Source of the DNA: a virus
Direction: 5' to 3' (one strand)
Length of the DNA stretch: 28,691 nt
IMG/VR virus record: IMGVR_UViG_3300025671_011277
Coordinates: 1-28,691 of that record
Numbering within the stretch: position 1 is the stretch's first letter; each line of letters opens with the position of its first letter. The notes under the pieces were generated by a model that worked only from the letters and a program-made list of their open reading frames with translations, did not search any database and was not told the origin of the DNA. This document shows positions 1 to 15,411 of this stretch, piece after piece. Made by a program: the position numbers and the translations under genes.

Positions 1-738
1 CTTAGATGCTTATCTGAGTATGATTCAGTAACTGCTTTATCTTTTGATTATGGTCAAAAACATAAAGTAGAACTAGAACGTGCCCAACAATTAGTAGGTT
101 ATCTACTAAACAATGGGCTTAATGTAACATATCGAGTTATTAAACTTGATGGACTTGTAGACCTACTAAACTCAGCTTTAGTAACAGGTGGAAAAGATGT
201 GCCTGAAGGGCATTACGAGCAAGACAACATGAAAGAAACTGTTGTTCCTAACCGAAACAAAATATTTGCTTCTTTAACTCAAGCAGTTGCATTATCAATT
301 GCAAACGAGAAACAAGAACAAACTGATATTGCTTTAGGAATACACGCAGGTGATCATGCAATTTATCCTGATTGCAGACAAGAATTTAGAGATGCAGACG
401 ATGCTGCCTTTAGAATTGGTAACTGGGATGCTGATAGAGTAGGTTATTTTACACCTTACTTAGAAACTGATAAACTAGGAATTTTAAAAGATGGACAAGA
501 ATTGGTTAAAGAGCTCGGAATTGAGTTTAATGAGGTTTACAAACGTACTAATACTTCATATAAGCCCTATCCTAGCGGCAATAGCGATTACAAGTCTGCC
601 TCATCTGTTGAGCGCATTGAAGCATTTATCAACCTTGGTGTGGACGACCCTGTACAATATGAGGATGAAACTGGACCAGTCGATTATAACGTTGCGAAAG
701 CACATGTTGAAAAACTATTAGCAGAGCACGCAGCATAA
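1..738 (+). CDS. queC: 7-cyano-7-deazaguanine synthase QueC, 5' truncated by window edge
   Basis: QueC converts 7-carboxy-7-deazaguanine to preQ0 using ATP and ammonia. The frame is open from base 1, so the start and the SGGxDS PPi loop lie upstream. Visible QueC features are FDYGQKH near the N-end, VPNRNK, YPDCRQEF and a C-terminal VERIEAF. The zinc site is abnormal. The family has four cysteines in a C-x8/9-C-x2-C-x2-C pattern before this C-terminal motif. Here the equivalent codons are Ser (556), Asp (586), Ser (595) and Ser (604), with flanking residues well conserved. The family call is secure, but whether preQ0 synthase activity survives is not. It is followed directly by a terminator, and queE and folE lie downstream. 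No queD is visible, so it probably lies outside the window. Confidence 0.9.
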   Translation, partial: LRCLSEYDSVTALSFDYGQKHKVELERAQQLVGYLLNNGLNVTYRVIKLDGLVDLLNSALVTGGKDVPEGHYEQDNMKETVVPNRNKIFASLTQAVALSIANEKQEQTDIALGIHAGDHAIYPDCRQEFRDADDAAFRIGNWDADRVGYFTPYLETDKLGILKDGQELVKELGIEFNEVYKRTNTSYKPYPSGNSDYKSASSVERIEAFINLGVDDPVQYEDETGPVDYNVAKAHVEKLLAEHAA

Positions 739-2483: not shown

Positions 2484-3263
2484 ATGACACAACTCAAACG
2501 TATTGAGGACTACGATAAAGTCCTTCCAATCCTAGAGCTTTATACAGCAGTACAATCAGAAGGTAGCCGTCAGGGTTATCCTACTATTGTTGTTAGAACA
2601 TCCGGTTGCACCCACCGTTGCTATTTTGGCGAAGGTGGATGGTGCGATTCTTGGTATACAAGTATCCATCCAGAAAAAGGTAAATATAGTTTTCAAAACA
2701 TTATTGATATGTACAAAGAACATCCTCATATCAAAGAAATGATGTTAACAGGTGGATCACCCACAATGCATCCCGCATTAGTAAACGAGTTAACACATTT
2801 TGCCCATGAAAATAATATATTCATCACTATTGAAACTGAAGGATCACATTTCCTTCCTACTGACTATCCCATTAATCTTCTTAGTATTAGTCCTAAGTTT
2901 TCCAATTCTATTCCTGTACTTGGAGTGGAAACTCCTCAAGGAGCAATTACAGACCAACGAATGGTTGACAGACACAATAAATTTAGAGTAAATAAAGATG
3001 CAATTAAAAAAAGTATTGATTATCATGATGACTACCATATTAAGCCTGTCCTTGATAAAGAACTTTCTATGGTTGGAGAAGTTGAAGAATTTCTTAAAGA
3101 TCTAGAAATCCCAGATGAAAAAGTTTGGGCAATGCCCGCTGGTGATGATAGAGAATCTCTATTTGAAAGTTATGGACCCGTAATGAATTTCGTAAGAGAT
3201 AGAGGATGGAGATATACTGGTAGATCACATATTATGGCATTTGGTACTGAACGCTGTGTCTAA
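2484..3263 (+). CDS. queE: 7-carboxy-7-deazaguanine synthase QueE (radical SAM)
   Basis: QueE rearranges 6-carboxytetrahydropterin to 7-carboxy-7-deazaguanine, the substrate of QueC. The 259-residue protein begins with the substrate-side motif ELYTAVQSEG. The cluster-binding region has Cys42, Cys46 and Cys54, followed by the usual WCDSWYT. The SAM-contacting motif is TGGSPTMHP, in place of the usual GGEP. The three cysteines are spaced C-x3-C-x7-C, while most QueE have C-x3-C-x2-C, so there is a five-residue insertion (around YFGEGG). Pairing with folE and queC supports the pathway. The start at 2484 has no Shine-Dalgarno sequence. Confidence 0.9.
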   Translation: MTQLKRIEDYDKVLPILELYTAVQSEGSRQGYPTIVVRTSGCTHRCYFGEGGWCDSWYTSIHPEKGKYSFQNIIDMYKEHPHIKEMMLTGGSPTMHPALVNELTHFAHENNIFITIETEGSHFLPTDYPINLLSISPKFSNSIPVLGVETPQGAITDQRMVDRHNKFRVNKDAIKKSIDYHDDYHIKPVLDKELSMVGEVEEFLKDLEIPDEKVWAMPAGDDRESLFESYGPVMNFVRDRGWRYTGRSHIMAFGTERCV

Positions 3264-3390: not shown

Positions 3391-3584
3391 CAGTAGGACA
3401 CAAATTAAAAGTAATCCACGATATGTGGATGAAAAAATCAATAGAACCTTCTCATATAATAAATTATTTAGATCATTTGGATCTTACATTAGGATTTATT
3501 ACATTAGGGGGTATTTCAGCAATTTCAAAAGATAAAAAAGAAAAATACGAATGGACAGTAGAAAAAAACAACACAATAATTTAG
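3387..3584 (+). CDS. Hypothetical protein, 65 aa
   Basis: Its ATG overlaps the preceding stop (ATGA) and is preceded by AAGTT, a context repeated at other starts in this window. The product is a small, basic, probably helical protein with no recognised motif. Its 3' end overlaps the folE start by 34 bases, so translational coupling with folE is likely. Confidence 0.6.
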   Translation: MTVGHKLKVIHDMWMKKSIEPSHIINYLDHLDLTLGFITLGGISAISKDKKEKYEWTVEKNNTII

Positions 3585-4243
3585 AAGTAGTACCCGTAGG
3601 TTTTGCTAATGGGATCGCCCCTGGTTTTCCTTTTTCAGATAAGGAAAAAGAATCTATGATAGAAGAGGCTGCTGAAGCCTATGGTCAATTTTTAGATGCA
3701 CTTAAATGTGATTGGAGAAATGACCCAAATTCAGAAGATACACCTCGTCGTGTAGCTAAAGCTTATGTAAATGATCTTTGGAAAGGTAGGTATTCTGAAA
3801 TGTCAGCAATTACATCTTTCCCCTCTGATGGATACGATGGTATAGTAATTGAGAGAAACATACCCCTTACTTCGATGTGCTCGCATCACCACCAAACCAT
3901 TAGAGGAGTAGTACATATTGGATACGTAGTTGGAGATGAAGGCCGTGTAATTGGTCTATCTAAACTCAATCGTATTGTTGAATTATTTGGTAGAAGAGGA
4001 GCAATCCAAGAACAACTAACCTCAGCAATTCACAACGCTGTAGATAAAATTTGTGAGAACAATAAAGGTGTAGTTGTTACTATAGTTGCTACTCATAATT
4101 GTGTTAGTTGTAGAGGTGTAGGACATCAAGGTGCTTCTATGGTTACTACTAAATGCAGTGGTGTTTTCTTTGATAAAGATAATGTAGCACGTCAGGAATT
4201 TTTTGATTCAATTAAAGTTAATAATGGAAATCATCCCGTATAA
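3551..4243 (+). CDS. folE: GTP cyclohydrolase I
   Basis: FolE makes 7,8-dihydroneopterin triphosphate from GTP, the first step towards both folate and 7-deazaguanine. The 230-residue protein has the family length. The zinc ligands are visible: Cys110 and His113 in SMCSHHH, and Cys184 in THNCVSCRG. Other typical parts are EDTPRRVAKAY, VIGLSKLNRIVELF and RRGAIQEQLT. The start at 3551 overlaps the previous gene by 34 bases. An internal ATG at 3656 would remove the N-terminal ~35 residues and is possible. It would feed QueD (not seen here), QueE and QueC. The stop overlaps the next start as TAATG. Confidence 0.95.
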   Translation: MDSRKKQHNNLEVVPVGFANGIAPGFPFSDKEKESMIEEAAEAYGQFLDALKCDWRNDPNSEDTPRRVAKAYVNDLWKGRYSEMSAITSFPSDGYDGIVIERNIPLTSMCSHHHQTIRGVVHIGYVVGDEGRVIGLSKLNRIVELFGRRGAIQEQLTSAIHNAVDKICENNKGVVVTIVATHNCVSCRGVGHQGASMVTTKCSGVFFDKDNVARQEFFDSIKVNNGNHPV

Positions 4244-4680
4244 TGTTAAAAGCACAAGGCAAAATATATCTTAGTTGGGATGACATTAAAAATGTTGTTG
4301 AAAAACTAGCTGAGAAAATTAATAATTTAGAAAAAAAACCTTTTTATATTTACGGAATACCTCGTGGTGGGCTAATTCCTGCCACTTGGATATCTCATAA
4401 AACAGGAATTGAATATCAACAGATAAATTCTGCTCAAATTTCTAAAATGGCAGATTTATCTCATATTTTAATAATTGATGATATTTGCGATTCGGGTAAA
4501 ACTGTAAAAAAAGTAAGAGAAAATTTTCCTAAAGTTAAAGTAGCTTGTTTATATTATAAAGAAAACGAAATTGCTAAACCTGATATTTATGGTGAGCTCG
4601 TTGGGGATGAATGGCTTTATTTTCCCTGGGAAGAGAAAGAAAAAATAGGAAATAGAGACAACACTTATGGAGAACTTTGA
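4243..4680 (+). CDS. Phosphoribosyltransferase (type I PRTase fold)
   Basis: The 145-residue protein has a PRPP-binding loop of the PRTase type (ILIIDDICDSGKT) and an upstream GIPRGGLIPA segment that matches the pyrophosphate loop of xanthine or hypoxanthine phosphoribosyltransferases. It probably attaches a purine or related base to PRPP. In a 7-deazaguanine gene block it could act on a modified base, but that is inference and plain purine salvage is as likely. The start overlaps the folE stop (TAATG) and the end overlaps the next gene by 14 bases. Confidence 0.8.
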   Translation: MLKAQGKIYLSWDDIKNVVEKLAEKINNLEKKPFYIYGIPRGGLIPATWISHKTGIEYQQINSAQISKMADLSHILIIDDICDSGKTVKKVRENFPKVKVACLYYKENEIAKPDIYGELVGDEWLYFPWEEKEKIGNRDNTYGEL

Positions 4681-7034: not shown

Positions 7035-8810
7035 ATGTATAAAAAGATTTACGAAGTAGGTAATAAAAGACAAACCGGTAAAGAGAATACCCATTTAATT
7101 CATCTGTGGACAGATGAAGGTTATGAAAAAATCGAATGGGAAAATCATTCCTATAGAGAATGCCGTGAAGATGAAGCTGAATTTAGAGGTTTAAACGGTG
7201 AACCCTTAGTACGTACCCATAACTGGAATAGAGATACAAATAAACTCCATTTTGGAGATATATCAGCACACCAAAAATTTTTAATTGAAAGGTACGGTAT
7301 TGATGATAGACCTTCTACTACTTGTAGAGAAGTATTTTTTGATATTGAGTGTGAAATGGGTGGTGCACTTACAGAAGAATATATTTCTAATGCACCAAAA
7401 CCCATAACTTCAATTGCATGGTATGATAAACAAGCTGACCAGTGGGCTATTGTTATTTTAGATAAAAAAGGTCAATTAAAACGTACTAAAGCAAAAAATA
7501 AAGAAATTATACCCTTTAGACATGAGGCAGATTTGTTAGATTGTTTTCTTTCCCGAATGGAAGAAATCCAACCTGATATGCTCGTAGGATATAATAGTGA
7601 TTATTTTGATATTCCTTATCTTTATTATAGAATGTGTATAGTATTAGGTGATAGACAAGCTAAGCGTTTATCTCCTATTGGTATAACAAAACATGCTAAA
7701 AATAATCAATATTGGTATAAAAAAGATATGTACGTTGATATCGCTGGTGTTGAATCAATGGATTACATGCGCTTACATAAAAAGTATGGGTGGGAAGATG
7801 AACCAAGTTGGAAACTCGATGCAATCGGCGAAAAATACGTAGGTATCAATAAAATTGAATATGAAGGTACACTAGATGATTTATTTGAGACTGATATTCA
7901 AAAGTTTATACAATATAACTTTGTGGATGTTGAAATATTAGTTGAATTAGATAAAAAGTTGCAATATCTAGCATTAACAAGAAACTTAGCACATAAAGGT
8001 AAAGTAAAATATAGTGAAGTATATGCTTCTTCTAAAATACACGATGGAGCTATTTCGGCATACTTACTTTCTCAAGGAATCATTCCTCCAAGTCGCCCTC
8101 ATGGAGAAAAAAAATTAAATTATGCTGGGGGGTATTTATTTTGTCCTAAAGCGGGTCTATACAAATATATGTTTGATGAAGATTTAACTTCACTATATCC
8201 TTCAATTATAATGTCTTTAAATATAGGACGAGAAACAATTGTCGGTAAAATTGTACCTGAATCATTACCAGATAAATTAGTTGAATATGGACCTTATGGA
8301 GAAAAACCAGATCGGAATAATTACCTAGGTTTAAATGATTTAAAAGAAATGGAACCCCATGAATCCGTTATAGTAATGGATCCTAATAAAAAAAATAATC
8401 CTAGAGCTACAGTTCCTGTTGGAAAACTTATTAATATAATAGAGCAAAATAAATGGGCTGTAGCGGCAAATGGTACCTTTTTTAGAACAGATAAAGAATC
8501 TGTATTATCAACTATTTTGAGTAAATGGTTTGATGAAAGAAAAATGTATAAAGATGAAATGAAAAAATCATATAAAGCAGGAGATACTGAAATGGGTGAA
8601 TACTACCACTTAATGCAATACACAATGAAAATTTTACTTAATTCCCTATATGGAGCTACAGCACTAAATTCGTTTAGATATGGAATGCCTTTGTCTATAT
8701 TAAGTGAAGCCATTACATTATCAGGGTGGCGTATTATACAGGAATCAGCATTAGTTGCTAATCGTCATATGAATAAAATTTTAAGAAATGAAATAAAGTT
8801 AGAAATATAA
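7035..8810 (+). CDS. 43A: DNA polymerase gp43, part A: exonuclease and palm motifs A and B
   Basis: This is the N-terminal 591 residues of a T4-like family B polymerase. Proofreading exonuclease motifs are intact: FFDIECE (Asp103, Glu105), YNSDYFDIP (Asp192) and YNFVDVE (Asp298). Polymerase motif A is DLTSLYPSI (Asp383) and motif B is KILLNSLYG (Lys532 to Gly540). The reading frame then ends at residue 591, before motif C, which is encoded by the gene at 9419. The summed length of the two parts, 898 residues, equals that of T4 gp43. The ATG has the AAGTT context. The stop overlaps the next start as TAATG, so this is a stable gene split and not a simple sequencing frameshift. Confidence 0.95.
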   Translation: MYKKIYEVGNKRQTGKENTHLIHLWTDEGYEKIEWENHSYRECREDEAEFRGLNGEPLVRTHNWNRDTNKLHFGDISAHQKFLIERYGIDDRPSTTCREVFFDIECEMGGALTEEYISNAPKPITSIAWYDKQADQWAIVILDKKGQLKRTKAKNKEIIPFRHEADLLDCFLSRMEEIQPDMLVGYNSDYFDIPYLYYRMCIVLGDRQAKRLSPIGITKHAKNNQYWYKKDMYVDIAGVESMDYMRLHKKYGWEDEPSWKLDAIGEKYVGINKIEYEGTLDDLFETDIQKFIQYNFVDVEILVELDKKLQYLALTRNLAHKGKVKYSEVYASSKIHDGAISAYLLSQGIIPPSRPHGEKKLNYAGGYLFCPKAGLYKYMFDEDLTSLYPSIIMSLNIGRETIVGKIVPESLPDKLVEYGPYGEKPDRNNYLGLNDLKEMEPHESVIVMDPNKKNNPRATVPVGKLINIIEQNKWAVAANGTFFRTDKESVLSTILSKWFDERKMYKDEMKKSYKAGDTEMGEYYHLMQYTMKILLNSLYGATALNSFRYGMPLSILSEAITLSGWRIIQESALVANRHMNKILRNEIKLEI

Positions 8811-9152: not shown

Positions 9153-9419
9153 ATGGCATTAACAAAACAATCATTAAGAAAAGGAGTTCATGTATTAATG
9201 AACGACAAACTTGCTACAAAAGAAGAACTCATAGAAATGAGTGAATCTTGGAGTGAAAAACGTGAAGTATTTTTTAGAAAAATGCTCCAACAAGGAGGTA
9301 AATTTAAATTTGATGGAATTCAATTTGAAGTAAAAATTAGAGCTAATGTAGCCGAAAGATCAGATGGATATGTTGATGCGGGAATAGTTCAAATACCTGG
9401 AGAAGATAGTAGGTTTTAA
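9153..9419 (+). CDS. Hypothetical protein, 88 aa, inside the split polymerase locus
   Basis: The gene follows the cupin after one base and its stop overlaps the start of polymerase part B (TAATG). The N-terminal half is helical and charged (KEELIEMSESWSEKREVFFRKML). The C-terminal half looks like a small beta unit (KFKFDGIQFEVKI). It has no GIY-YIG, HNH or LAGLIDADG motif, so it is not an evident homing endonuclease. Its position next to both polymerase parts makes a replication role conceivable but unproven. Confidence 0.65.
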   Translation: MALTKQSLRKGVHVLMNDKLATKEELIEMSESWSEKREVFFRKMLQQGGKFKFDGIQFEVKIRANVAERSDGYVDAGIVQIPGEDSRF

Positions 9420-10342
9420 TGAAGCATTTAGAAGAAACACCTTGGTTTATATGCGATGAAGATGATACGAATCTGTGTGCTTATGTAGATACAGATTCGA
9501 ATTATTTTAATGCTGAACCTCTATTATTACATTTATATCCTGATTTTGAACAAAAAACAAATGAGGAAAAAGATGAAATTTTAGAGAAGGTTGCTTTATA
9601 TTACCAAGATTTTATTTCTGATCATTATAATAACCTTGCTAAAGATTGTTTTAATGTTACTGACCATAGGTTAGAAATGAAAACTGAATGTGTTATTCGT
9701 TCTGCCTACTTCAGAGCCCCTAGACGTTATGCTCAATGGATTACTAAACAAGAGGGTATAACTAAAGAATCTTTAGATGTAAAAGGGTTAGAATATAAAA
9801 AATCAAATTTTCCCAAAGTATTTGGTAATTTCTTTAAACAAGTAGTTGAAGATGTTTTAAAAGGTACACAACAAAGTGAAATTGATGCTCGTATACTTGA
9901 TTTTAAAAAGAAAATACTAAATGATATGCCTATTGGGGAATTAGGTAATCCTACAGGAGTTAAAACATTAAACAAATATATTGAACGTAAGCCTGTAGGG
10001 GGTGAAGCTTTTACAGTTATACGTAAAGGTGCCCCCGCTGCTGTACGAGCTACCATTAAGTATAATGATTTACTTAAATATTGGAAGTTAGACAACCAAT
10101 ATGAAACAATAGTTCAAGGTAGTAAAGTAAAATGGATTTATTTAAAAAAGAATCCATATAACATTGATGCTTTAGCTTATCTTGACTATAATATTCCTCC
10201 TAAAATTGAAGAATTTTTAGATAAATTTGCTGATAAAGAAAAAGTATTTGATACTATATTATTAAATAAATTAGAGGGATTTTATTCAGATCTGGGATGG
10301 AGATTAGTTACAAACCCATATATTAACCAATTTTTTATATGA
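9419..10342 (+). CDS. 43B: DNA polymerase gp43, part B: palm motif C and thumb
   Basis: This is the 307-residue C-terminal part of the polymerase. Motif C is YVDTDSNYF, with catalytic Asp24 and Asp26, and corresponds to GDTDS of T4 gp43. The following residues fit the palm and thumb, including KTECVIRSAYFRAPRRYAQW (the T4 K-x-Y region). Part A ends about 20 residues before motif C, so the two products together rebuild the active site with essentially no missing sequence. Both parts must associate for activity. The start overlaps the preceding stop (TAATG). Confidence 0.93.
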   Translation: MKHLEETPWFICDEDDTNLCAYVDTDSNYFNAEPLLLHLYPDFEQKTNEEKDEILEKVALYYQDFISDHYNNLAKDCFNVTDHRLEMKTECVIRSAYFRAPRRYAQWITKQEGITKESLDVKGLEYKKSNFPKVFGNFFKQVVEDVLKGTQQSEIDARILDFKKKILNDMPIGELGNPTGVKTLNKYIERKPVGGEAFTVIRKGAPAAVRATIKYNDLLKYWKLDNQYETIVQGSKVKWIYLKKNPYNIDALAYLDYNIPPKIEEFLDKFADKEKVFDTILLNKLEGFYSDLGWRLVTNPYINQFFI

Positions 10343-12602: not shown

Positions 12603-13013
12603 ATGAGTACATTATTTTATGAACGAAATCCGTTCGACATTTTAGTTAGGAATTTTTTCCAAGACGCTGGAGCATACAGACCTCTAGCAGAATCCAAATT
12701 ACCCCACCCAGTAGATATTTACGAAAGAGACAATGGTTTAGGCCTAGATATAGCCTGTACTGGAATCTCTAAAGACGATATTGAAATTCTTATAGAGGGT
12801 AATATAATCAGAGTAAATTACGATAAACCAAAAGAAGAAGATTTAGGTGAATATATCCATAAAGGTATCGCTAAAAGATCTTTTAATTTAGGTTGGAAAA
12901 TTGATAGTAGATTTGATCTATCAAAAGCAACAGCCGAATTTAAAAACGGACTGTTACAGATTATTATACCTTTTGCTAAAGGTTTAGAGCCAAAAACTTT
13001 AAAAATTAGCTAA
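12603..13013 (+). CDS. hsp20: Small heat-shock protein Hsp20
   Basis: The 136-residue protein has an alpha-crystallin domain (about residues 35-130). It contains LPHPVDIYERDNGLGLDI at the start, a FNLGWKIDSRFDL strand pair, AEFKNGLLQIIIP (the family's GxLxI..P signature), and a C-terminal LKI that can serve as the I-x-I anchor. It holds unfolding proteins for refolding, here most simply for the phage GroEL/GroES next to it. Hsp20 genes are known from T4-like cyanophages. It has its own promoter and a structured leader. Confidence 0.92.
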   Translation: MSTLFYERNPFDILVRNFFQDAGAYRPLAESKLPHPVDIYERDNGLGLDIACTGISKDDIEILIEGNIIRVNYDKPKEEDLGEYIHKGIAKRSFNLGWKIDSRFDLSKATAEFKNGLLQIIIPFAKGLEPKTLKIS

Positions 13014-13018
13014 AAAGT

Positions 13019-13031
13019 CTCTGCCCTAGAG
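13019..13031 (+). repeat. Inverted-repeat partner after hsp20
   Basis: GCCCTAGAG (13023-13031) is the exact reverse complement of CTCTAGGGC (12537-12545) in the hsp20 leader. Locally, CTCT (13019-13022) and AGAG (13028-13031) form a small hairpin whose loop, GCCCT, is complementary to the leader loop TAGGGC. The remaining bases to 13086 hold an AT-rich stretch that may contain a promoter for the next gene, but no clear -33 box is seen. Confidence 0.5.
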
Positions 13032-13086
13032 CTAGGTTATTTAAAATATTATTCGTATATTCACGTAAATAAACAAGTTATAAAAT

Positions 13087-13368
13087 ATGGCAAATCCAAA
13101 CTTTAAAGGTCGACCAAAAGGATCGGGCAAATCAACATTTATCGAAGATCCTGTACTGGGAGATTACAAAATCGCTATTGATGAATATAGCTTTAATGTA
13201 GTTGATACTATTAAAAACAAAACTGTAAGTTTTTCTACTTCACTACCAAGAGCTTTATTACAAGTTGCAAAACACCAAATGCTTCAGGAAAAAGTTTTTA
13301 GTTTAGAAGAATATGCGAGAGAATTTAAAGAAACACATGAGAAACTTCAACAATCAATTTTAAAATGA
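13087..13368 (+). CDS. Hypothetical protein, 93 aa, before groES
   Basis: The protein starts NPNFKGRPKGSGKSTFIEDP, a flexible basic N-end; the GSGKST piece resembles a P-loop but has no following Walker B context. The rest is a probable beta-hairpin and a charged C-terminal helix. Its stop region overlaps the next small gene (ATGA). I do not recognise a family. Confidence 0.65.
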   Translation: MANPNFKGRPKGSGKSTFIEDPVLGDYKIAIDEYSFNVVDTIKNKTVSFSTSLPRALLQVAKHQMLQEKVFSLEEYAREFKETHEKLQQSILK

Positions 13369-13478
13369 GTAAAGCACGTGGACAATCACCTATGCGTAGG
13401 TACAAAAGACGAGATCAATTTAAATTGACAACTAATCAAGGAAATAAAATCAATAAAGCTAAATTTAGTAAAAAATGA
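13365..13478 (+). CDS. Small basic protein, 37 aa
   Basis: ATG 13365 overlaps the stop of the preceding gene and the frame ends at TGA 13476-13478, overlapping the groES ATG. Both junctions are ATGA overlaps. The product (SPMRRYKRRDQFKL near its middle, KINKAKFSKK at its end) is strongly basic and may bind nucleic acid. The two exact overlaps argue for a real gene despite its size. Confidence 0.6.
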   Translation: MSKARGQSPMRRYKRRDQFKLTTNQGNKINKAKFSKK

Positions 13479-13765
13479 GTAAATTAAAACCAGTTAATGG
13501 TAATATTGTTCTTCGCCCAGTAGAAGAAGAAGAACAAATGGCAGGTAATATTATTATTCCTGATATGGGTAAAGAAAGACCTGATATGGGGGAAATTATA
13601 GCAATTGCTCCTGTTTATAATTTTAATAAGGGAGAATATCTAACTTCAGTATTAAAAGTTGGTATGAAAGTACTAATACCAAAAATGGGTGCCCAATCTA
13701 TTACAATCGACGGAGAAGAATATTATATAACAGCACAAAGTTCAGTGCTATCAATTGTTGAATAA
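13475..13765 (+). CDS. groES: Co-chaperonin GroES
   Basis: The 96-residue protein matches GroES throughout: LKPVNGNIVLRPVEEEE, a mobile loop AGNIIIPDMGK carrying the hydrophobic III tripeptide that docks on GroEL, a GEIIAIAP strand, VGMKVLIPK, and the C-terminal VLSIVE. It is closer in length and motif order to bacterial GroES than to T4 gp31 (111 residues). It overlaps groEL (TAATG), the standard groES-groEL gene order. Confidence 0.92.
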   Translation: MSKLKPVNGNIVLRPVEEEEQMAGNIIIPDMGKERPDMGEIIAIAPVYNFNKGEYLTSVLKVGMKVLIPKMGAQSITIDGEEYYITAQSSVLSIVE

Positions 13766-15411
13766 TGACAGAAACAAGTTTCGGAACAGAATTAAAAAAT
13801 AATCTCTTAGAGGGAATTAAAAAATTAAATAACAGTGTTGCATCAACTTTAGGCCCAGCTGGTAGAACCGTTTTAATTAAGGAAAGCACCGGTGAAATTA
13901 AAGTAACTAAAGATGGAGTTACAGTAGCTAAATCTTTTAATGAATTAGAAGACCAAATAGAATCTATTGGTGCTGAATTAGCTAAAAAAGTATCTATTAA
14001 GTCGGCTAATGAAGTAGGAGATGGTACTACAACGTCTACAGTTTTAGCTACAGCTATATTAGAAGAAGGAATCAAACAAATTAATGATGGTTCAAATCCT
14101 GTAAGTATTAAAAAAGGCATTGATGAAGCTGTATCTATAGTAGTATCTAAGCTTAAAGAAATGGCTACTGAAATTACTGATGATTCTCAAATTAAAGAAG
14201 TTGCTACTATCTCAGGCAATAATGATATTGAAATCGGTAATTTAATAGCTACATCCTTAGATAAAGTAGGTCGTGAGGGTATTGTAACTATTGAGGAATC
14301 TAAAACGGGTGAAACATCACTTGAAGTAGTAGAAGGGATGCAATTCGATAGAGGATTTAAATCACCTTATTTTGTTACAGATAATGATTCAATGTCTGCT
14401 GTATTAGATGATCCTTATATCTTAATTTTTGATGGCCGAATTACCCAAGCTTCTGAATTATTAAATGTATTAAATAAAGCAAGTGGTGAAAATAAACCTA
14501 TTTTAATTGTAGCAGAAGATATTGATAATGAAGCATTAGCAACACTTATTGTTAATAAAATGAGAGGTACTATCCAAGCTGTAGCCGTTAAGGCCCCAGA
14601 TTTTGGTGATAGAAGAACTATGGCTTTAGAAGATTTAGCTACAGTTACTGGTGGACAAGTAATGTCTAAAAATAAGGGACATAAACTTGATAAAATGCAA
14701 CCTTTACAATTTAATGATTTGTTAGGTTCAGCTCGTAAAGTAACAGTTACTAAAGAAAATACTACAATTATTGATGGGAAAGGAACTGAAGAAGCTATTA
14801 CTGAAAGAGCATCTCAAATAAAAACCCAATTAGATAATGCTACTTCAGCATTTGAAAAAGAAAAATTACAAGAAAGATTAGGTAAATTAATAGGCGGTGT
14901 CGCAATTATAAACGTTGGTGGCAATTCTGAAATCGAGATCAAGGAGAAAAAAGATCGAGTAGAGGATGCTTTGTTTGCAACCAAAGCAGCCCTTGATGAA
15001 GGAATTGTAGTAGGTGGCGGCACCGCTCTATTATATGCTGCTGGTGCAATTGATCCTTTAGGTAATGATGATGTTGCTATTGGTCGCAGAATTGTAAAAC
15101 AAGCAATTACAGAACCATTTGTTAAAATCTTAACTAATGCAGGTCATGATATAAATGATATTAGATTTGCTTCATTTAAACTAATCGATTCAGGCGATAG
15201 TTTATGGACTGGATTGAATTATAAAGACCTATCAGTAATTGATTATAAAAAAGAAGGTATTATTGACCCTAAAAAAGTAACAAGAATTGCTTTAGAAAAC
15301 GCTGCTTCAATTGCTGGTACTATTCTCACCACAGAATCAGTTGTATACGAAAAACGAGAAAACAATAATAACCAAACCCCAGACCCAATGGCGGGAATGG
15401 GAATGATGTAA
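13765..15411 (+). CDS. groEL: Chaperonin GroEL, full length
   Basis: The 548-residue protein has the size of bacterial GroEL. The ATPase parts are intact: [26 protein letters not shown] and ATISGNND in the equatorial and intermediate domains, [21 protein letters not shown] with the catalytic Asp, and [14 protein letters not shown] near the end. The apical domain is present ([12 protein letters not shown]). The tail, PMAGMGMM, is a short version of the GGM tail. It should form the folding ring used with the upstream GroES, for example for the major capsid protein. There is no sign of decay. A complete GroEL is rare in phages, especially beside GroES. Confidence 0.96.

Follow-up and report, generated by a model that had tools for sequence, protein, structure and literature searches.

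QueC-family proteins without the zinc cysteines in phages, marine archaea and bacteria

In the literature QueC figures as a zinc enzyme, with the motif C(x)8CxxCxxC used as a signature of the family, including in a survey of 2026 (PMC13329287). Zinc is described there as required for canonical QueC function, which counts against any zinc-free reading, and mutation to Ala of Y35, R99, Y131 or Y189 of E. coli QueC abolished function (PMC13329287). In phages, dPreQ0 has been reported for Rosebush and dADG for Campylobacter phages (PMC6884629). A literature search, with many subscription papers outside its reach, found no report of a bona fide QueC without the cysteines. Cluster 1 or the small archaeal clusters of the survey may contain such a group without comment (PMC13329287).

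The stretch analysed here (the window, 28,691 nucleotides) derives from a marine phage and opens with a queC gene (Table 1) that very probably encodes a zinc-free, otherwise ordinary synthase converting 7-carboxy-7-deazaguanine (CDG) to preQ0 in a phage 7-deazaguanine DNA-modification pathway. The gene start lies before the contig, and the visible protein corresponds to the last 245 aa; the full-length QueC of the closest relative has 264 aa. The initial annotation had read the four zinc positions as Ser (556), Asp (586), Ser (595) and Ser (604). These codons (TCA, GAT, TCT and TCT) are confirmed in the sequence, and alignment with E. coli and other phage QueCs places them on C188, C197, C200 and C203, anchored by an invariant Tyr right after the first zinc position and an invariant Arg after the last, both retained in the window protein (Tyr at 559, equivalent to E. 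coli Y189; Arg at 613). A cysteine set elsewhere in the protein had been foreseen as a possible objection, but the visible 245 aa hold no replacement set of four, the only cysteines being residue 3 and that of YPDC. Since the zinc cysteines are absent, the protein was filed as a Cys-less variant and not as a canonical member. Its best relatives among solved structures are QueC structures.

Table 1. Positions of the queC features and pathway genes in the window, and of the compact DpdA in a relative
Feature	Sequence	Positions	Strand	Basis or remark
queC	window	1..738	+	PF06508 E 6e-31; N-terminus cut by contig end
YGQKHKVE, QueC YxQxHxxE substrate/ATP motif (E. coli Y35-E42)	window	49..72	+	Y, Q, H, E invariant across all Cys-less sequences
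VPNRN, QueC VPxRN motif	window	244..258	+	E. coli R99 essential (PMC13329287)
YPDC, QueC substrate motif	window	364..375	+	E. coli Y131 essential (PMC13329287)
Lys matching conserved E. coli K165	window	472..474	+	alignment
Former zinc motif of QueC, KRTNTSYKPYPSGNSDYKSASSVER	window	541..615	+	window sequence and alignments
queE, 7-carboxy-7-deazaguanine synthase	window	2484..3263	+	PHROG 2076 QueE E 6e-48; TIGR03365 E 2e-14
folE, GTP cyclohydrolase I	window	3551..4243	+	PF01227 E 1e-42
Phosphoribosyltransferase, same cluster	window	4243..4680	+	PF00156 E 6e-12
Compact DpdA, 263 aa	L124 (relative of the window)	17278..18066		fold match 7ui4

Structure prediction, which had been proposed as a check, was carried out with AlphaFold2 on the full-length QueC nearest to the window (pLDDT 82.6; weak around residues 135-144). 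The predicted fold is best matched by B. subtilis QueC 3bl5 (Z 16.5, rmsd 3.6, 193 aligned), followed by Erwinia QueC 2pg3 (Z 15.3), Cap9 9nto (Z 15.2) and QatC 9y01 (Z 13.6). Confidence over the Ser/Asp segment is moderate to good (residues 201-230, with block means of 73, 84 and 91), and in the model its last positions form the start of a helix (219-231).

Scanning IMG/VR yielded at least 599 confirmed relatives of the window QueC. From these scans we considered 161 phage loci, 81 from a first scan (window included) and 80 from a second, some contigs being in both; as best matches to the window query, they form a set biased toward this family. The CxxCxxC motif is found in 0/161 of these loci, versus 31/31 canonical cellular controls. 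The claim of a QueC without its four zinc cysteines was therefore true and even understated, the same swap being present in 161/161 loci examined. In 159 of them the peptide reads SDYKS[A/S]SSVER, for which 85 different DNA spellings occur with Ser codons of both families, which indicates that the Cys-less motif is under strong purifying selection. A pseudogene or an assembly error is ruled out by the near-invariance of the motif across the 161 loci. The SGGMDS loop occurs in 80/80 phage relatives of the first scan, and in every relative whose N-terminus is present; in the window itself this loop, which the initial annotation had proposed to look for, lies beyond the contig end.

Across 290 Cys-less sequences (E. 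coli numbers), SGGxDS, Y35, Q37, H39, E42, V96, P97, R99, N100, Y131, P132, K165 and Y189 are invariant or missing in one, and D133 and C134 nearly so, while the zinc positions hold one Cys in all (first position of the archaeal protein L353). The earlier remark that family motifs are kept without decay is thus borne out by the catalytic residues and by a near-invariant peptide under synonymous turnover. Among isolates, Flavobacterium phage immuto comes nearest, at 65% identity.

A tree of QueC, from which the motif columns were removed and five long-branch rows left out, places the Cys-less proteins in two clades. The first (clade A; support 100/100) gathers flavophage, gammaproteobacterial, verrucomicrobial and archaeal QueCs; the second (support 97/91) comprises Iggy, Knedl, RHEph06, R5C, Pan1, HD01 and Bhz54, and is sister to the Cys-bearing archaeal QueC L352. 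A single loss for all Cys-less QueCs was rejected (AU p = 4.8e-5, with all Cys-less rows held together). On this phylogeny, the second phage clade lost its cysteines independently. It carries HT[SA]YDG...[TV]..[DN]H[AS] at the former zinc motif; viral contigs scanned with the Iggy QueC as query gave few loci. Pseudomonas phage Iggy has QueE, QueC, QueD, FolE and DpdA in one cluster, and its phage group is reported with dPreQ0 in the title of doi 10.1093/nar/gkad622 (via PMC11008142, PMC11945000), though the preQ0 in Iggy DNA could derive from the host QueC instead.

The window also carries queE, folE and a phosphoribosyltransferase gene. Its QueE has a radical-SAM cluster motif of the type CX3CX7C (CTHRCYFGEGGWCD), not CX3CX2C, and this spacing is found in 65 phage-side loci; Cysteiniphilum has CX3CX8C in its only close QueE match, and marine group II (MGII) archaea have a QueE with ordinary spacing. 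A tie between the Cys loss in QueC and the odd QueE spacing is rejected, since MGII pairs a Cys-less QueC with an ordinary QueE. The phosphoribosyltransferase is near folE in both phage lineages, that of immuto and that of the window relatives, and our guess is that it recycles guanine released by DpdA.

DpdA and QueD are not within the window contig. In syntenic relatives the genes run DpdA-QueC-QueD-QueE-FolE-phosphoribosyltransferase, and after them comes the split DNA polymerase B region also seen in the window; DpdA is therefore to be expected immediately ahead of the point where the contig begins. Among relatives tested, 13/13 have DpdA, which adjoins queC in the syntenic ones, and 9/9 have QueD; the window genome presumably encodes both. 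The genes identified beside queC in relatives belong to the preQ0 pathway, replication and nucleotide functions. The family B DNA polymerase of the window is split in two genes (7035-8810 and 9419-10342), between which lie a small gene and one for a cupin resembling mannose-6-phosphate isomerase, an arrangement similar in syntenic relatives. Further along, Hsp20-, GroES- and GroEL-like genes are clustered (12603-15411; ORF list and matches to the immuto annotation).

The DpdA of these phages is compact and was missed by the PF01702 profile; it was detected with the immuto protein as query and by fold search. Its model (pLDDT 94.8) has as best PDB match the DNA preQ0 insertase 7ui4, followed by tRNA-guanine transglycosylases. 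Asp52, Asp83 and Asp198 are invariant in 44 sequences, there is no CxCxxC site, and the corresponding PHROG 19058 is labelled as of unknown function. The sister phage immuto carries FolE, QueD, QueE, QueC, DpdA and QueF. Among the relatives G001-G014, QueF is present in 6/13, exactly those with an immuto-type DpdA (6/6 vs 0/7), and was not detected in the window-type lineage (0/7 relatives). This coincidence suggests that DpdA switched substrate, between preQ1 and preQ0, as the end of the pathway changed.

The Cys-less QueC is not a phage-specific peculiarity, because the same protein is found in cellular genomes. Searching the genomes of 84,980 bacterial and archaeal species gave 532 relatives, the best 80 of which all lack CxxCxxC, part of these 80 loci being evidently phage contigs in MAGs (DpdA beside queC). 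Cellular members occur in marine group II/III archaea, Cysteiniphilum, Facilibium, two Thiotrichales, Legionella gresilensis and some Verrucomicrobiota. In 23/23 cellular genomes, a set that comprises MAGs as well as isolates and a single-contig chromosome, no full-length PF06508 QueC other than the Cys-less one is present, further hits being weak or partial and mostly in longer ORFs. Phage-specific repurposing is ruled out by these genomes. TGT is present in 21/23 of them and QueA in 10/13 checked. QueF scores above cut-off in 8/8 gammaproteobacterial and 3/3 verrucomicrobial genomes checked, directly upstream of queC in Verrucomicrobiota, and retains intact the Cys, Asp and Glu that form the active site of nitrile reductases. 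From this co-occurrence with QueF, which takes preQ0 as its substrate, and from its status as sole QueC, the Cys-less QueC is predicted to carry the QueC reaction through both of its steps.

In marine group II/III archaea the gene order around the Cys-less QueC is FolE-QueE-QueC-QueD. Of 30 QueC loci listed in an archaeal-class sample, 29 are without the zinc motif (L353 keeps the first Cys) and L352 has it. MGII loci of 358-383 aa (e.g. L157, 2505-3641) consist of a Cys-less QueC with a C-terminal extension, which in L157 is an MsrB (SelR) domain. The sole QueC of Legionella gresilensis (L155) falls in the Cys-less clade beside the phage/gammaproteobacterial group, a position that suggests horizontal transfer.

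In the pathway that we propose, FolE, QueD and QueE would make CDG, which the Cys-less QueC would adenylate with ATP and convert with ammonia to the amide ADG; consuming a second ATP, the enzyme would then dehydrate ADG to preQ0. The part that zinc plays in canonical QueC, fixing the C-terminal loop, would fall to the conserved Ser/Asp/Ser/Ser arrangement, and the catalytic Tyr (equivalent to Y189 of E. coli) could thereby still be presented. In the window lineage, preQ0 would pass to the compact DpdA encoded beside queC in relatives, which would put it into phage DNA in exchange for guanine; QueF could reduce it to preQ1 beforehand in the sister lineage, that of immuto. The initial annotation had offered either folding without zinc or a different reaction. 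The first is supported; the second, and with it a repurposed enzyme, is unsupported, as the residues essential for preQ0 synthesis are kept and the clade provides the sole full-length QueC of cells with QueF, TGT and QueA or with the archaeal operon.

Departures from this scheme were weighed. That the QueF-less window lineage has either shifted its product to ADG, inserted by DpdA to give dADG DNA, or turned the Ser/Asp cluster into a new metal site is, taken as one alternative, unlikely. Binding of another, harder metal such as Mg2+ at the same place seems quite unlikely: most clade A members do have one acidic residue among the four zinc positions, but this Asp changes place between groups (position 2 in the phage and gammaproteobacterial proteins, position 4 in MGII-type ones), and the Ser/Thr/Asn/Asn set of Iggy contains no acid. 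Ser hydroxyls are moreover weak metal ligands.

We regard as very unlikely that the enzyme stops at ADG, leaving phage DNA with dADG and not dPreQ0. With no QueF detected in the window lineage, its product could be either ADG or preQ0, and downstream demand for the nitrile is lacking there; dADG has a precedent in the Campylobacter phages mentioned above. However, phages and bacteria both include orthologues that carry this motif alongside QueF, which requires the nitrile, and CxxCxxC is retained in the QueC of CP220, a Campylobacter phage from the group with dADG, from which it follows that ADG is not coupled to Cys loss. A QueC-family ligase joining deazaguanine to protein, like Cap9 or (probably) QatC, would have a defence-system precedent and the same predicted fold, but is hardly credible: YxQxHxxE, VPxRN, YPDC and Y189 are retained, unlike in QatC, and the relatives adjoin FolE, QueD, QueE and DpdA. 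Moreover, Cap9 and QatC, to which the initial annotation had pointed as a parallel, both retain the zinc cysteines (PMC13279940, PMC13329287), and Cys loss is therefore no mark of repurposing. Finally, a decaying or non-functional queC, which the lost hallmark motif might evoke, is practically out of the question, since all relatives keep the frame open and encode a nearly unchanged peptide, and is already refuted at the family level.

Although zinc is regarded as defining for QueC, two lineages of the family apparently dispense with it. If true, the metal would be dispensable for QueC chemistry and would only scaffold the loop with the essential Tyr. Natural material for testing the role of zinc is offered by the Cys-less proteins that serve as sole QueC in a major marine archaeal group and in cultured bacteria, together with the second loss in phages. 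Annotation based on motifs or cut-offs can miss Cys-less QueCs, and queuosine, archaeosine and DNA-modification pathways can be overlooked as a result.

With canonical QueC (TIGR00364 / PF06508 cluster 1; E. coli, 3bl5, 2pg3), the Cys-less form shares the fold, SGGxDS, YxQxHxxE, VPxRN, YPDC, Lys165, Tyr189 and the pathway partners; it differs by the absence of C(x)8CxxCxxC and by a longer C-terminal tail, and the closest relative of the window (L002) scores 135.9 bits against TIGR00364, just below the cut-off of 150.3. The QueCs of Rosebush-type mycobacteriophages and of Arthrobacter/Rhodococcus phages (Laurie, Finch, Sonali) are the sister group of clade A: they have surroundings such as HAGDHAxYPDCR and VERxEAF in common with it, but keep CxxCxxC. 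Marine group II/III archaeal QueCs (Poseidoniales) belong to the same Cys-less clade, with identical catalytic residues and as sole QueC, but have mostly Ser/Ser/Ser/Asp, often a C-terminal MsrB (SelR) fusion, and an operon with an ordinary QueE. Those of Iggy, Knedl, RHEph06 and R5C are also Cys-less, with all catalytic residues and in preQ0 gene clusters, but stem from a separate loss and have other residues at the motif. Cap9 and QatC share the QueC-family fold, and differ by their zinc cysteines and by other partners and chemistry. DksA2 and the alternative ribosomal proteins likewise lost cysteines and kept function; these are zinc-limitation paralogues beside a zinc form (PMC9213440, PMC5912738), whereas the Cys-less QueC is the only form.
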